This document shows, one piece after another, positions 1,394 through 45,057 of a DNA stretch of 64,000 nucleotides. The notes below the pieces were generated by a model. The model was given only the letters and a program-made list of their open reading frames with translations. It did not search any database and was not told the DNA's origin. The stretch lies in the NCBI GenBank assembly GCA_000526255.1, contig JAFS01000001.1, forward strand, positions 682,001 to 746,000, given 5' to 3'. Source of the stretch: Verrucomicrobia bacterium LP2A (GTDB lineage Bacteria; Verrucomicrobiota; Verrucomicrobiia; Methylacidiphilales; Methylacidiphilaceae). Made by a program: the position numbers and the translations under genes. Numbering within the stretch: the stretch's first letter is position 1; each line of letters opens with the position of its first letter.

Positions 1394-1921
1394 TCATCGC
1401 CCGCTCTCCCGCCGCAAGAGCGCTTCCTTCCGCTCGATTCCCCACCGGTAGCCCGACCGGTGGCCATCGGCCCTCCCGACACGATGGCAAGGGATTGCGA
1501 CGGCCATGGGATTGGCGGCACAGGCACGGGCCACGGCGCGAGCCGCCTTTGGCGCGCCGATCCGCCGGGCGATCTCGCCATAGCTCACCTGCCTGCCTGA
1601 CGGAATTTCCCTCAGGGCTCGCCAAACTCGGTATTGGAAGGCGGTACCGCGGATGTCCAAGGGCAGGCCCAGGCCTTGGGCCGGGGCTTCGATGAAACCG
1701 ACCACCTCGGCGACGAGCGGCTCGAGTGCCGAGTCCCCGCCGATCCGCCGGGCTTTGGGAAGGCGCTCCCGCAGATCGCGGAGCAGGGCTTCTGGATCAT
1801 CGCCCAGGGAGATGGCGCAGACCCCGCGAGGACTCACCGCCACCAGGATCGATCCCAGCGAGCAGATGCCAAAAGCATAGCGAATTGCGCTGCCGATGTC
1901 GGCGGCCTTTCGCTCCATCAA
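1394..1921 (-). CDS. ogt: Methylated-DNA--[protein]-cysteine S-methyltransferase
   Basis: 175 residues. The C-terminal half carries the family signature: FQYRVWRALREIPSGRQVSYGEIARRIG (helix-turn-helix DNA-binding part), then the active-site loop with PCHRV, whose cysteine accepts the alkyl group from O6-alkylguanine, and a GYRWGIERKEALLRRE tail. The first 70 residues form a poorly conserved N-terminal domain, as in Ogt or the C-terminal domain of Ada. It acts in cytoplasmic direct-reversal DNA repair. The start lies only 3 bp from the end of the rhodanese-like gene read in the same direction, so it may be the last gene of that small operon. Confidence 0.9.
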   Translation of the reverse strand: MMERKAADIGSAIRYAFGICSLGSILVAVSPRGVCAISLGDDPEALLRDLRERLPKARRIGGDSALEPLVAEVVGFIEAPAQGLGLPLDIRGTAFQYRVWRALREIPSGRQVSYGEIARRIGAPKAARAVARACAANPMAVAIPCHRVGRADGHRSGYRWGIERKEALLRRESGR

Positions 1922-1924
1922 ATC

Positions 1925-2422
1925 TTATCCCCCTTTTTCGGTCGGATAGCCCTTGTGGGTCCAGTCCTGGGCAAAGTCATGGGGCAGGTAGAGAACCTTG
2001 GCAGCCGAGAATCCCAGCTCCTTCGCGGTCTCGAATGCCGGCCGGATGTTGGGGCAGACGTCCAGGGGACAGCAGCCGCAGTAGAGAAGGATCTTCTTAT
2101 CCTTGGGGAGCGAGGAGAGAACCTTCTTGAGCGCCTCGATGCCTTCGGGGTCCTTTCCCGCCCCGACATAGATCGAGCCGGGAATATGGCCCGCCTTGTA
2201 GAGGAAAGGAAAGCCGACCTGATAGATCTGGTAGGAAGGGCTTCCCGCCTTCTGCAGCGCCAAAAAATCCTTCGGCAGGAGGATGTCGCTTCTCGTCCAA
2301 GGGTCACCCGGAGCGATTGGAATCGAAGGCTCTTCTCCCCGGAGAGGGGCGACGCCCCATAGCGTGAGGAGGAGGAGAAATCCGAGGGCCAGTCGGAACG
2401 AGGAGAGGGGGCAAGCGATCAT
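1925..2422 (-). CDS. Exported rhodanese-like protein
   Basis: 165 residues from the ATG at 2422, which overlaps the TGA of the upstream methyltransferase gene (ATGA), indicating translational coupling. Residues 1-29 are a signal peptide (LALGFLLLLTLWGVAPLRG). The rest is a single rhodanese-type domain: the GHIPGSIYVG motif is followed by KKILLYCGCCPLDVCPNI, a cysteine-rich version of the active-site loop (CxCC...C) where classical rhodaneses have one catalytic cysteine. Similar exported proteins are thought to handle sulfur or thiol chemistry in the periplasm; the substrate here cannot be told. It is followed closely by ogt. Confidence 0.75.
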   Translation of the reverse strand: MIACPLSSFRLALGFLLLLTLWGVAPLRGEEPSIPIAPGDPWTRSDILLPKDFLALQKAGSPSYQIYQVGFPFLYKAGHIPGSIYVGAGKDPEGIEALKKVLSSLPKDKKILLYCGCCPLDVCPNIRPAFETAKELGFSAAKVLYLPHDFAQDWTHKGYPTEKGG

Positions 2423-3234
2423 GCGGGCGATTCTCCCAATCTTTGGCGCGGCTCCGCAATCGGGAAGCTTGTCCGAAATCCGATCGGACACTCCCTTTCC
2501 TCCCGATCCGCGGCGACCGCCAGGAATGCGGCGCCCAGGGAGGCGCGGCGCCCTAACCAGGGATCGATCGGCTCGAAAAGTCGTGCCGCCCATCCCCAGG
2601 GGGGATAGTAGACCGCCCCGGCCACCCGTTTCACAGCGAGGCCCCCATTCTCGAGAAGTCGGCAAAGCTCGTCCGCCGTCCGAAAGCGGGCCTTCTGCCA
2701 GAACTCGTCTCCGAGCCAGCCGCGGATCCGGCGGCGGGCGGCCCACACGCTCCATCGGCCCAGCTCTCCGATCACCAGCCTTCCTCCCGGAGCCAGGACG
2801 CGAGCCATCTCTCGCACGACGGCGTCGGGGTCGCGAACAAAGCAGAGGACGGTGACCGCCGCGACGAGGTGGAAGCTCCCGTCCGCAAAGGGCAGGTTCT
2901 CCCCGCTTCCGAGCCTCACGGAGACCGCTGCTCCCTCGGCCCGGGCCCGCTCGCGGGCGGCTTCGACCATTGCCCGACTCGGATCGACGCCCATTGCGTG
3001 CGCTCCCCGAGCCGCGGCCCATACCAGTAGCGCTCCATCTCCGCAGCCCACGTCCAAGAACGTCCTCCCTCTGAGCTCTCCCGCAAGCTCCAGGAGGAGC
3101 CGCCGCTCCAACCGGTCGGTGATCCGGCCGAGGGTTGAGGCGCGCCAGAACCGAAAGCCATCCGGAGGCACGATGCCCGCGAATCGGGCGGTGTCGACGG
3201 CGCGCCCGGGGGCGGCGGATAGGAATAGCTTCAT
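2419..3234 (-). CDS. Class I SAM-dependent methyltransferase
   Basis: 271 residues from the ATG at 3234, preceded by AGGAAG at a good distance. Motif I is FLDVGCGDGALLVWAA (SAM-binding GxGxG), followed by GVDPSRAMVEAAR (acidic loop) and the post-motif ENLPFADGSFHLVAAVTVLCFV with MARVLAPGGRLVIGELGRW. This is the UbiE/Methyltransf_11 fold. The C-terminal third (YYPPWGWAARLFEPID) is not diagnostic. The acceptor is unknown. It overlaps the next gene (rhodanese) by 4 bp, so the two proteins are probably made together, perhaps in one sulfur or small-molecule pathway; that link is inference. Confidence 0.8.
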   Translation of the reverse strand: MKLFLSAAPGRAVDTARFAGIVPPDGFRFWRASTLGRITDRLERRLLLELAGELRGRTFLDVGCGDGALLVWAAARGAHAMGVDPSRAMVEAARERARAEGAAVSVRLGSGENLPFADGSFHLVAAVTVLCFVRDPDAVVREMARVLAPGGRLVIGELGRWSVWAARRRIRGWLGDEFWQKARFRTADELCRLLENGGLAVKRVAGAVYYPPWGWAARLFEPIDPWLGRRASLGAAFLAVAADREERECPIGFRTSFPIAEPRQRLGESPA

Positions 3235-3384
3235 GACGCGCTTCCTGGAAAAGAATATACAGCGCATTTCCTTTCGGTCGACCTCTCGGGGGGGCGGGAA
3301 GCGGCCAAGGTGTGGCCTCGCTCTTCCCCGGCTTGCCTTTCGGAGAAGCGGAACCATAGCATCGAGGCGAACCAATCCTCGTTC

Positions 3385-7700: not shown

Positions 7701-8218
7701 AAGCGGTTGCCTCCTTCCTCGATCAAAACCCGCGTCCCGATCGAGACATGCTCGAAAAGCTCGACCATCTCTTCGTTTCGCAGGCAGATACAACCTTTGC
7801 TCATGGGTTTTCCGATTGAGTATTCGTGATTGGTGCCGTGGAAATAGACGAAGCGCGCGCGTGTGGTCAGATTGTGCGGCTCCATTCCCGCCAGCCAGAG
7901 GATGCGCGTGAGGATCAGGCTCTGCTCGCAGAAGGGAGTGTCAGGAGTCCAGAGGAATCCGGTCGGCCGCCGTGCGCGAAACTCGGTGCCCAGCGCAGAG
8001 CCCTCTCCGATCTTTTCGCAGACGAAGTGCCATCCGCGAGGGGTCCGGTGGCTTTCCGGCTCCTCCCCGCAGCCGAGAAGGGCGGTGCTCACCGGCGCTT
8101 CCCAGACCGGCTCCTTGCCGCTCAGGACGCGCACCTTCTGCTCCCAGACCGAGACATGCAGCCAGATCCCTTCCGGCGCGGAGGAAAGGGCAGATTGGTT
8201 CCAGGGTTCAAAATGCAT
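7697..8218 (-). CDS. L,D-transpeptidase (YkuD domain)
   Basis: 173 residues, a compact YkuD catalytic domain. The active site is HGTNHEYSIGKPMSKGCICL near residues 126-145: the conserved His and the SxGCIxxRN cysteine nucleophile are present. Upstream, RTPRGWHFVCEKIGEG is the usual substrate-strand region. No signal peptide is visible, which is unusual for an enzyme that crosslinks peptidoglycan or attaches lipoprotein, though many short YkuD proteins are annotated this way. It overlaps the LOG gene by 11 bp and the HAD gene by 4 bp, so it is part of a tight three-gene operon. Confidence 0.85.
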   Translation of the reverse strand: MHFEPWNQSALSSAPEGIWLHVSVWEQKVRVLSGKEPVWEAPVSTALLGCGEEPESHRTPRGWHFVCEKIGEGSALGTEFRARRPTGFLWTPDTPFCEQSLILTRILWLAGMEPHNLTTRARFVYFHGTNHEYSIGKPMSKGCICLRNEEMVELFEHVSIGTRVLIEEGGNRL

Positions 8219-9251
8219 TGAGCTGGTCGATCAGTTGCCGCAGGCGGCCATAGGATCTGCGGTCGAAGGGAAAACAGAGCCGCGGGAGGGAGAGAAGCTC
8301 CGGTTCGTTGGCCTCGGGCGGCAGGGCCCCGGTCCTCTGAAACGAGCCGGGCCGGGCGACGATGTCCTCGAAATCCCGCTCGATTGCCGCGAGCGTCGAG
8401 TCGTCGGGCGCCCGATGGATCCGTAGGGCCAGAAGCTCTCCCACGAACCGGTAGGAATGAAAGTTGTAGTAGAAACGCTCGATCTCCCGGGTCGCTTCCT
8501 CCAGTTCGTCGGTGAAGGTGAACAGGTGAAAGTCCTGCTCGGCAATCAGCCCGCGGGAGAGTAGCTCCTTGCGCAAGAACTCCTGAAAAGCGCTCCAATA
8601 GGAGCCTCCCGGGTAGTCGATGAAGACCATCGGGACGATGGGGGCCTTGCCCGTCTGCATGAGCGTGAGCGCCTCGAAGCATTCATCCATCGTTCCAAGG
8701 CCGCCGGGAAAGAGGGCGATGGCGTGGGATTCTTTGACGAAGTGGAGCTTCCGAGTGAAGAAGTAGCGGAAGAAAATCAGCTTCCGGTCGCCTTCGATCA
8801 CCTCGTTCGGGCGCTGCTCGCAGGGAAGGCGGATGTTCAGCCCGAAGCTCATCTCCTTTCCGGCGCCGAGCTGGGCCGCACCCATGATCCCGTCCCCGCC
8901 CCCCGTCAAGACCATGAAGCCCGCCTTGGCGATCTGCTGGGCGAAGCTCCGGGCCATCCGCCAGTCCGGGGTGTCGGGAGCGAGCCGGGCCGAGCCAAAG
9001 ATCGTCACCTTCTTGACCCCACGGTAGGGTTGAAAGACAGCGTCGGCATACCGGATCTCCTTGAAGGCCTGGTTGATCATCCGGATATCGCCGGGTGTGG
9101 TGCCCTGGCGGGCGAAGCGGATGGCGGTCGCCACCATCTCGAAATACTCTCGCTGACCACTGCCGATGCCCGCCGCTTCGAGCAGCTCGGCGATCTTCTG
9201 ATCCAGCGCGGGCTCGCCTGTCGAATAGCTCGCGCTTTTTTTTTCCGCCAT
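8208..9251 (-). CDS. LOG-family protein (TIGR00730 / lysine-decarboxylase-like fold)
   Basis: 347 residues. It has a Rossmann-like core with GGGDGIMGAAQLGAGKEMSFG and the signature PGGLGTMDECFEALTLMQ, the PGGxGTxxE phosphoribohydrolase motif known from LOG cytokinin-riboside-monophosphate hydrolases and bacterial nucleotide 5'-monophosphate nucleosidases. Flanking N- and C-terminal helical extensions (about 80 residues each) make it longer than plant LOG and put it in the larger bacterial subgroup. Probable role: release of base from nucleoside monophosphates; exact substrate unknown. It is first gene of the operon with the L,D-transpeptidase and HAD genes. Confidence 0.8.
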   Translation of the reverse strand: MAEKKSASYSTGEPALDQKIAELLEAAGIGSGQREYFEMVATAIRFARQGTTPGDIRMINQAFKEIRYADAVFQPYRGVKKVTIFGSARLAPDTPDWRMARSFAQQIAKAGFMVLTGGGDGIMGAAQLGAGKEMSFGLNIRLPCEQRPNEVIEGDRKLIFFRYFFTRKLHFVKESHAIALFPGGLGTMDECFEALTLMQTGKAPIVPMVFIDYPGGSYWSAFQEFLRKELLSRGLIAEQDFHLFTFTDELEEATREIERFYYNFHSYRFVGELLALRIHRAPDDSTLAAIERDFEDIVARPGSFQRTGALPPEANEPELLSLPRLCFPFDRRSYGRLRQLIDQLNAF

Positions 9252-9281: not shown

Positions 9282-11108
9282 ATGGCAAATTTATTAGAAC
9301 GGCTCTCCCAGCGGCTCCTTCTGGGCGACGGTGCGCTCGGAACCTACCTCTATTCGCTCGGGCTTCCTCGCAGGTATTGCCTCGAAGAGGCGAACTTGAG
9401 TCGCCCGGATCTCGTGCGGCGCGCCCACGCCGACTACCGGCAGGCGGGGTCGGGAGTTCTCCGCACCAACACGACGGGGGCCAACCGCGCGAGCCTCAGT
9501 CGGTTCGGCCTCGAGCAGAGGGTGGTCGAGATCAACCGGCGAGGGGTCGAGCTCGCCCGAGAGGCCGCAGGAGAAGGGGAGTGCTTCCTCGCCGGAAGCG
9601 TCGGTCCGATCTGGCTCCGTCCCTGGGAGGGAAGCCTCTCTCCAGAGGAACGGCGGTCCCTCTATCGGGAGCAGATCACGGCACTGTTGGAGGCGGGCTG
9701 CGACGTCATTCTTCTGGAGACCTTCACCGAGCTTTCCGAAGCGACGCTTGCGCTCTCGGTCGCCCGGGAAGCGGGGGCTCCGCTCGTCGCGGTCTCGCTC
9801 GCCGTATTCGAGGAAGGCCGGCTTGGCAACGGCGACACGCTCGCCTCGGGCCTCGCCTCGCTTCGACAATCCGGAGCCCGGATCGTCGGCATCGGCGGAA
9901 GCTGCGGCGTCTTGGCCTCACTCCATCTGCTCGAGGGGATCGAGCTGCGTCCGGGGGAGATCCTCTGCGCCTTTCCGAACGCGGGGAAGCCTGAGTTCTA
10001 CGAGGGACGTCTCGCCTATTCGGCCAGCCCCGAATATTTCGGCGCGAGCGTCGAGCGCTTTGTCGAGGAGGGGGTCCATCTGCTGGGAGGGGATTACGGC
10101 ACGAGCCCGCTCCACATCGCGGCGATGGCGCCCGAGATCGCCCGCCGCCGTCCCCGCCTCGAGAAGCCGCGGCGGCTCCGCGTTCCCGTGATCGAGGCGG
10201 CGAGGGAGGAAGAGCCGCCCAAGGTCGAAGAGGAGAGCCTCTTGGAGCAGTGCAAGCGGAAGCCGGTCGCCATGGTCGAGCTCGATTCTCCGCGGACGCT
10301 TTCGATGGACAAGTTCCTCGAAGGGGTTCGCGCCCTGGAGAAGGCGGGGGCCGACGCCCTCACGCTGGCCGACAACTCCCTGGCCATCCTCCGGGTCAGC
10401 AATCTCGCGGCGGCGGTAGCGGCCCAGCGCTGCTCCCGGCTCCAGACGGTCCTCCACCTCGCCTGCCGCGATCGGAACCTGCTCGGCCTCCAGTCTGAGC
10501 TCATGGGGTTTTCGGTGCTCGGCTTCCGTCACGTGCTCGCCCTGACCGGAGATCCCGCCAAGGCGGGCGACCATCCTGGCGCGACCTCGGTCTACGACCT
10601 CAACTCACTGGGGCTCATCAAGTTAATTGCAAAGCTCAACGCGGGGGTCTCCGCCGCGGGGCGCGACCTCAAGGCGAAGACCAACTTCGTGGTCGGATGC
10701 GCCTTCAATCCCAACTCGGTGCAGTTCGATTCGCAGGTGCGCAAGCTCGAGTCGAAGATCGCCGCCGGTGCGCAATATGCGATGACCCAGCCGGTCTTCG
10801 ACGCGGAGCTGGTCCGGAAGAGCGCCGAGCGGCTCCAGCCCCTGGGCATCCCGGTTTTCGTCGGGATCATGCCGGTGCTCAACTCCCGCAACGCCGAGTT
10901 CTTGCACAACGAGGTGCCGGGGATTTCGATCCCGGAAAGCCTGCGGGAGCGGCTGCGGCATCTCGAAGGGCCGAAGGCGGCGGAAGCGGGGCTGGATGCG
11001 GCGCGAGCGCTGGGGGAGGCGGTGCTCGAGCGGTTTAGAGGGGTCTACCTGATTACCCCGTTCACGCGGTACGACCTCTCCGTCCGGCTCCTGGAGGAGC
11101 TTTTCTGA
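9282..11108 (+). CDS. Homocysteine S-methyltransferase-like / methylenetetrahydrofolate reductase fusion
   Basis: 608 residues from the ATG at 9282. Residues 1-300 are a homocysteine-methyltransferase TIM barrel (LLLGDGALGTYLYSLG; GAGVLRTNT-type loop; CDVILLETFTELSEA). Residues 315-608 are a MetF-type flavin reductase (PVAMVELDSPRTLSMDKFLE; VLALTGDPAK; FVVGCAFNPN; GAQYAMTQPVFDAE; GIPVFVGIMPVLN). The domain order matches bifunctional YitJ proteins. Odd: the barrel's zinc motif, normally GGCCGT, reads GGDYGT (about 10090-10107), so the two adjacent zinc cysteines are missing, and the upstream NC motif is altered to GGSCG. The reductase half looks intact, so it probably supplies 5-methyl-THF; methyl transfer by the barrel is doubtful. 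Confidence 0.85.
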   Translation: MANLLERLSQRLLLGDGALGTYLYSLGLPRRYCLEEANLSRPDLVRRAHADYRQAGSGVLRTNTTGANRASLSRFGLEQRVVEINRRGVELAREAAGEGECFLAGSVGPIWLRPWEGSLSPEERRSLYREQITALLEAGCDVILLETFTELSEATLALSVAREAGAPLVAVSLAVFEEGRLGNGDTLASGLASLRQSGARIVGIGGSCGVLASLHLLEGIELRPGEILCAFPNAGKPEFYEGRLAYSASPEYFGASVERFVEEGVHLLGGDYGTSPLHIAAMAPEIARRRPRLEKPRRLRVPVIEAAREEEPPKVEEESLLEQCKRKPVAMVELDSPRTLSMDKFLEGVRALEKAGADALTLADNSLAILRVSNLAAAVAAQRCSRLQTVLHLACRDRNLLGLQSELMGFSVLGFRHVLALTGDPAKAGDHPGATSVYDLNSLGLIKLIAKLNAGVSAAGRDLKAKTNFVVGCAFNPNSVQFDSQVRKLESKIAAGAQYAMTQPVFDAELVRKSAERLQPLGIPVFVGIMPVLNSRNAEFLHNEVPGISIPESLRERLRHLEGPKAAEAGLDAARALGEAVLERFRGVYLITPFTRYDLSVRLLEELF

Positions 11109-42614: not shown

Positions 42615-43994
42615 AACCGAATGATCCGTGTCTTGTCCGGATGCAGTTGCAGCGAGAATGCCTTCGACCGCGTCCCCATCTCCGCCAGAAACCGCTGGGC
42701 ATCGGCTTCATACTCAAAGCCGAGGACACTATCATCGGCGTAGCGCACTATGATCATGTCCCCGCGGGCGTGGCGTTTCCGCCACTGTTGCGCCCAGAGA
42801 TCGAACACGTAATGCAAATAGACGTTGGCCAACAGGGGCGACACCGTCGCACCCTGAGGCGTGCCTGCTTCGCTCTCCGTGACAACCTCCGCCTCCAGTA
42901 CTCCCGCCTTCAGCCATTTGCGGATCAGACGGAGGATGCGCTCGTCGCCGATTCGATGCTCCAGGAAACGAATAAGCCATTCATGACTCACCGTGTCGAA
43001 AAAGCTTCGATAATCTGCATCGAGTATCCAGCTCACCTTCCGTCGTTGAATGCCGGTTGCCAAAGCATCCAGCGCATCGTGCTGACTGCGCTTCGGCCGG
43101 AATCCATACGAGAACCCGAGGAAATCTTCCTCGTAGATCGCATTCAGCACCGCCACCACCGCCCGCTGGAGGAGCTTATCCTCCAACGACGCGATGCCCA
43201 ACGGCCGCTGCCGCCCATCCGGCTTTGGAATGTACTTCCTCCGGCTGGGCAGTGCCCGGTACGCGCCCCGATGAACCCGATCATGCAGACCTTGCAGATT
43301 GCTCTCCAGGTTTGCCTCGTAGTCCGACCATCTCACCCCGTCCACTCCGGGAGCCGCGTTGCGCTTGAGTGCGTAAAACGACTGACGGAGTAGATCGACG
43401 CTGATATGGTGGAGCAGCGCAGTGAACCGTTCCTTCTTCCTCGCCTTTGCTACTTGCCGTACACGCTCCAGCGCCTGTGACACGCGAACCCGGCCCTGAG
43501 TCCGGTCCGTGCTTTGCTGATGCGTGTTCCCCTCGGTCCTCGCCCTTGGCTCCACCGGCTCCGCCGCCGGTTTCCCGGCCTTGTTCGTCGGCTTCTCAGC
43601 TACTATGGCGAGGTCAGACTTCTTGGGTCCGTTCATCATCGGCTTTGGCTCCTCACCTTCCCGATGCGGACCGGTAGTGCTTGCCGGTCAGGCCCAAGAT
43701 CTCCCGGTTCCCGTGCGAAGAGCGTGCGCACATGCCAGGTTCTAAGACCACGCCGAACCGATCGAAGGCTCGCGTTATCGCCTCCGGCCGTGTTGCCTTC
43801 CACGTCAAAGACCGTGTCAGCGTTCGGAACATAAACCATTTTCGCGGCTCCATGGCTGGCCTGTGCGTACCCTTGTCAACGCTTCACCGTTGTCCTCACG
43901 GTCAACGGCGCATGACTCAGGGCCACTGTGATTCGCTATTTCTTCAGTGCAGTGGACTTGCACCACCTACTCTTCGCCGGTTTTGCCGGCGCAC

Positions 43995-44966: not shown

Positions 44967-45057
44967 TGGCGGAGCCGGAGGGATTCGAACCCTCGGTACC
45001 CTTTTGGGGTACAACGGTTTAGCAAACCGTCCCTTTCGGCCACTCAGGCACAGCTCC
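44967..45057 (-). tRNA. tRNA-Ser (anticodon GCU)
   Basis: On the reverse strand the acceptor arms are GGAGCTG and CGGCTCC, pairing over 7 bp with one G-T. The anticodon stem-loop is ACGGT-TTGCTAA-ACCGT, so the anticodon is GCU. A long variable arm (TACCCCAAAAGGGTA) marks a class II tRNA, and the T-loop is GGTTCGAATCC. CCA is encoded (44967-44969 side). Reads AGC/AGU serine codons. Confidence 0.95.

Follow-up and report, generated by a model that had tools for sequence, protein, structure and literature searches.

According to one review, YitJ of B. subtilis consists of a homocysteine methyltransferase that uses AdoMet, fused to an MTHFR (PMC6302742); which methyl donor canonical YitJ uses is not settled. 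In MetE, the N-terminal barrel is a former zinc/homocysteine barrel that has been disabled by substitutions, among them a Cys to Tyr change, and that is kept as a structural partner of the active barrel (PMC539065). Here we describe a fusion of a homocysteine methyltransferase (HMT) barrel with an MTHFR barrel in which the zinc site of the first half has been lost. We found no papers on a zinc-less variant of this fusion in the literature searched.

The window (the whole stretch of DNA that was analyzed, 64,000 nucleotides) belongs to a 2.47-Mb genome that is 99.9% complete. The nearest named relatives are Methylacidimicrobium species (86%–87% protein identity), which are acidophilic verrucomicrobial methanotrophs; a preliminary description, made from the letters alone, had correctly spoken of a C1-metabolizing organism. 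The features of the locus are as follows.

8208 to 9251, minus strand: LOG/SLOG-type protein (PF03641, PF18306), the divergent neighbor and locus marker.
9282 to 11108, plus strand: fusion gene for HMT barrel, linker and MTHFR; 608 amino acids plus stop, from the open reading frame and its translation.
9318 to 10130, plus strand: homocysteine S-methyltransferase barrel, residues 13–283 (PF02574, E = 5.7e-46; pLDDT mostly >90).
9894 to 9908, plus strand: loop after strand 6 that formerly held the first zinc ligand, G205 G206 S207 C208 G209, from the HMMER alignment to PDB 1q7m and the group alignment.
10086 to 10103, plus strand: GGDYGT, residues 269–274, which replaces GGCCGT, with D271 and Y272 in place of the vicinal zinc cysteines.
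10131 to 10232, plus strand: inter-barrel linker, about residues 284–317, with low model confidence around 302–313.
10233 to 11105, plus strand: MTHFR (MetF-type) barrel, residues 318–608, with PF02219 at 325–563 and a fold match to Thermus thermophilus MTHFR.

The HMT barrel is N-terminal and the MTHFR barrel C-terminal (PF02574 and PF02219), and the start codon is backed by the sequence MANLL, which is kept in orthologues. Over its full length (residues 2–606) the protein belongs to NCBIfam NF006396 (696 bits against a cut-off of 453). Each half is also recognized separately: the HMT barrel by PF02574 (158 bits against 22) and by its fold, and the MTHFR half by PF02219 (97 bits against 24), by its fold and by its catalytic residues. 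E333, H392, D397, D424, and Q503 are invariant in an alignment of 43 sequences, so that the MetF half is indeed intact, as first described. An AlphaFold model (mean pLDDT 86.6) contains two well-folded barrels whose mutual placement is uncertain (pTM 0.55). The HMT barrel superposes on the MetH structure 8g3h over 292 residues at 2.3 Å and the MTHFR barrel on T. thermophilus MTHFR over 265 residues at 2.2 Å; the joint match of both barrels to two-barrel MetH is at 19 Å rmsd, and the fold comparison informs on fold only.

What the HMT half lacks is the zinc site, a Cys after strand 6 and a Cys-Cys pair after strand 8. In the HMMER alignment to Thermotoga maritima MetH (PDB 1q7m), G206 sits under the first zinc Cys (INCSLG in MetH, IGGSCG here) and D271-Y272 under the vicinal Cys pair of GGCCGT, which confirms the substitution of GGDYGT for GGCCGT noticed at the outset. 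The three positions that NF006396 expects to be Cys are thus G, D, and Y. The preliminary description also took GGSCG for the upstream NC motif; it was right that the zinc site is lost, but the Cys of this motif is not a ligand. C208 follows the ligand position by two residues, and some relatives have V, T, S, or L in its place; we therefore reject it as a remaining ligand, and all three zinc ligands (now Gly206, Asp271, and Tyr272) are gone. By contrast, the residues that would hold the amine and carboxylate of homocysteine (D16, T62-N63, E146, and N233, assigned by alignment to MetH/BHMT) are present in the window protein and in nearly the whole clade that shares GGDYGT. The earlier remark that fold and substrate loops remain holds to this extent: the fold and most pocket residues are retained. 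We infer from these substitutions that the barrel neither carries zinc nor has methyltransferase activity, and the label “bifunctional” should not apply to this protein even though its architecture fits NF006396.

The motif is not a peculiarity of one assembly. Thirty-two distinct fusion sequences, from four families of the order (f1, f3, f8, and f9), all have GGDYGT; these families comprise Methylacidimicrobium, Methylacidiphilum, and relatives. Among the congeners, including complete genomes, it is identical and is encoded by varied synonymous codons, and the reading frame of the window gene is intact. The possibility that relatives would have GGCCGT and that this sequence is a mere error is thus ruled out for the order, and we consider an error or a pseudogene to have practically no chance of being correct. 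The variant also occurs in three other families of the order, whose members need not be methanotrophs, which weakens a connection to methanotrophy as such.

In other lineages the picture is different. When aligned with fusions of other Verrucomicrobiota, as had been proposed, nearly all related fusions sampled in the rest of the phylum are found to keep NC...GGCCG, including those of the Pedosphaera, Chthoniobacter, and Spartobacteria groups (58 aligned sequences). In a wider phylum sample, 38 of 39 readable fusions have the zinc cysteines (one further locus, L194, is unreadable and is not counted among the 39). The exception is L201 (G377:C16:25802-27553, minus strand), a divergent second HMT-MTHFR fusion from another class of the phylum, with GVNGGQ and GGFSGT and no zinc cysteines; the other fusion copy in the same genome, L214, is canonical, and the loss in L201 is independent and followed a duplication. 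A Bacillota fusion (Cytobacillus) has the canonical cysteines. In family f4 (subdivision 6 freshwater lineages) the motif reads GGGSGV, and E146, T147, and N233 are gone as well. The fusion L096 has a partial site (MNASLG and GGCVGT) with a single zinc Cys, together with the LOG synteny described below, and is possibly an intermediate in the loss of the zinc site.

In a full-length tree from which the trait columns had been left out, the Asp-Tyr sequences form one side of a branch with an SH-aLRT of 100. This tree indicates a single origin of the Asp-Tyr state, and the loss of the zinc site is clade-wide and ancient. The MTHFR half alone shows the grouping less clearly, as the long-branched, barrel-less sequence of G016 falls inside it. 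The f4 and Asp-Tyr groups are joined in the full tree with weak support and have the LOG synteny in common; on MTHFR alone, a common origin of their losses has an AU p-value of 0.17.

In the named-contig set, the LOG-type gene adjoins the fusion at each of the 30 zinc-less loci; it also adjoins the barrel-less MTHFR L159 and is found beside none of 50 canonical fusions. Only 30 bp separate its start codon from that of the fusion, and the pairing is kept across zinc-less lineages. The fusion does not lie in a met operon: its neighbors encode the LOG-type protein, a YkuD transpeptidase, a HAD hydrolase, and an M20 peptidase. No Rfam match near the fusion points to riboswitch control of the kind found at some met genes. 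Two RNA features were noted elsewhere in the window.

43738 to 43960, minus strand: group II catalytic intron (Rfam RF02005, 186.9 bits).
44970 to 45057, minus strand: tRNA, noted with the intron.

Does the cell have another way to make methionine? Our genome-wide statements are based on profile searches. In the source genome the fusion is the only PF02574 protein and the only PF02219 protein, and hence the sole MTHFR. The preliminary description had proposed a search for metE or metH elsewhere: a full MetE is present, in which the HTHMC, E, and DCG zinc motifs are intact, while neither a MetH nor a second MTHFR was found by profile search of this 99.9% complete genome. The same holds more widely: MetH and/or MetE is present in all 21 GGDYGT genomes of at least 90% completeness, and in all of these but one (G048) the fusion is the only MTHFR. 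Among carriers of the canonical fusion, G132 (98% complete) has no MetE, no MetH, and no other PF02574 protein, which leaves its zinc-bearing fusion as the only methionine synthase candidate seen. It is the single such case; in G067, which we also considered, a further PF02574 protein lies in an 877 amino acid frame.

These observations bear on the idea that the barrel still methylates homocysteine, either through another metal site (built, for example, from D271, Y272, C208, and D16) or without a metal. Carboxylate zinc ligands (Glu or Asp) are known in MetE-type enzymes (PMC7857596), C208 is near the old site in sequence, and the homocysteine pocket residues are kept. However, C208 varies within the clade, where no new His or Cys has become fixed, and a further methionine synthase is present in all near-complete genomes that carry the variant. 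Apart from a sequencing error, this is the least probable of the explanations we consider.

We next ask whether the barrel is under selection. The ratio of barrel to MTHFR divergence is 1.66 in the Asp-Tyr clade (5%–95% range, 1.45–2.0), 1.71 in zinc-bearing fusions (1.45–1.94), and 3.87 in family f4 (3.0–4.8). Within Methylacidimicrobium the dN/dS of the barrel is 0.09–0.14. Since the Asp-Tyr barrel evolves at the same relative rate as barrels that have the zinc site, and with a dN/dS of about 0.1, it is not simply decaying; it is under normal, undiminished purifying selection despite the lost zinc site. The f4 barrel is decaying. In family f5, the locus L159 of G016 (G016:C32, 4042–4938, plus strand) has a syntenic MTHFR of 298 amino acids in which the start of the linker is kept and the HMT barrel is missing; the profile search finds no PF02574 protein anywhere in the G016 genome, and a full MetE is present. 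One could regard the barrel as a remnant on its way out, with a meaningless Asp-Tyr pair, as the f4 pattern (GGGSGV, E146Q, N233D, and the ratio of 3.87) and the complete loss in G016 would lead one to expect. The rate and dN/dS of the window clade, and the fixation of Asp-Tyr in four families, speak against such plain decay, which we rate as improbable, only slightly less so than continued homocysteine methylation.

The Asp-Tyr clade is further distinguished by a set of fixed, largely clade-specific residues (Y22, L26, G206, K236, Y240, D271, and Y272), and its pocket is well retained: D16, T62, and E146 in 31 of 32 sequences each, N63 in all 32, and N233 in 29. The same-family orthologue L016 (G008, 1501–3324) has N for D16 and K for E146 and retains Asp-Tyr. 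The fixation of D271 and Y272 along with Y22, L26, K236, and Y240 counts against a non-catalytic barrel, and these residues could form a new active site. It is conceivable, for instance, that Asp271, Tyr272, Lys236, and Tyr240 make up a metal-free site that acts on an amino-acid-like or C1-bearing substrate in a reaction coupled to MTHFR. The Asp and Tyr are among just 51 invariant sites of the 290 in the barrel across the 32 sequences, the four further residues are fixed as well, the pocket is mostly kept, and selection is not relaxed. But f4 shows decay of the barrel and the syntenic locus of G016 lacks it, the G008 orthologue has lost both amine-binding carboxylates while keeping Asp-Tyr, and the neighboring genes point to no pathway. 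We regard new catalysis as unlikely, if less so than decay. A broader possibility, to which we give somewhat more credit and which we still hold only tentatively, is that the barrel was converted once, at the base of the order's main clade, into a zinc-free domain with an Asp-Tyr pocket, ligand-binding or catalytic, that controls or extends MTHFR. If true, this would be a prokaryotic MTHFR with a built-in sensor derived from the downstream enzyme of its own pathway.

Taken together, we think it probable that the fusion is a working MTHFR whose HMT barrel is non-catalytic and either plays a structural part or senses a ligand, and that “bifunctional” is a mis-annotation. The absent zinc ligands, their fixed replacements, the intact MTHFR residues, the backup by MetE or MetH, the purifying selection, and the sister lineages in which the barrel is decaying or absent all favor a non-catalytic barrel. 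The fusion would be the cell's MTHFR, with a predicted NAD(P)H-dependent activity from methylene-THF to methyl-THF, and another enzyme would use the methyl-THF for methionine synthesis (MetE in this genus; in the other families of the order, MetH and/or MetE). The HMT barrel, presumably unable to hold the zinc that activates homocysteine, would not methylate it, and may be retained in folded form as a partner of the MTHFR half that has no catalytic function. With MetE or MetH carrying out the methylation, the zinc site could be dispensed with; the barrel was fixed in remodeled form in one clade and decayed or was lost in others. In the window clade the barrel would most likely be of use in assembly or stability, or in sensing an amino-acid-like ligand in the remodeled pocket. 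The large retention of D16, T62, N63, E146, and N233 counts against a purely structural barrel, which would have no need of them. The role of the barrel is likely to be new or altered; the “new role” first proposed for it stands only as far as the undiminished selection goes, and the regulation or channeling of methyl-THF offered as an example would be no more than a candidate for it.

The family that annotation pipelines call bifunctional includes an entire clade in which the methyltransferase half is without the metal site that it needs, and predictions of the methionine pathway in these organisms are therefore probably wrong at that step. The order also provides a natural series (zinc site intact, Asp-Tyr fixed, degenerate, and barrel absent) for studying how a catalytic domain can turn into a partner without catalytic function, and it raises the question of MTHFR regulation by a domain that descends from methionine synthase.

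How does the fusion compare with known systems? It has the two-barrel architecture of YitJ/SamT-type HMT/MTHFR proteins (NF006396, PRK08645) and is approximately 43% identical to the Cytobacillus member, but the other sampled members (Cytobacillus and canonical Verrucomicrobiota) keep NC...GGCC whereas this clade has no zinc cysteine. With the homocysteine domain of MetH (T. maritima 1q7m/3bof) it shares the barrel fold and the pocket residues DGA, TN, ETF, and PNAGKP; it differs in lacking the three zinc cysteines and in its second barrel, which is MTHFR here and a folate-binding methyltransferase barrel in MetH. The N-terminal barrel of MetE belongs to another family, and its partner is a zinc barrel rather than MTHFR. 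In eukaryotic MTHFR (human, Chaetomium; PDB 6fcx, 8qa6, and 8uy2), the barrel is joined to a non-catalytic, AdoMet-sensing regulatory domain. The fusion likewise joins an MTHFR barrel to a domain that is probably non-catalytic, but the eukaryotic domain is C-terminal and unrelated to the HMT barrel. Ligand sensing by the HMT barrel is a hypothesis only.
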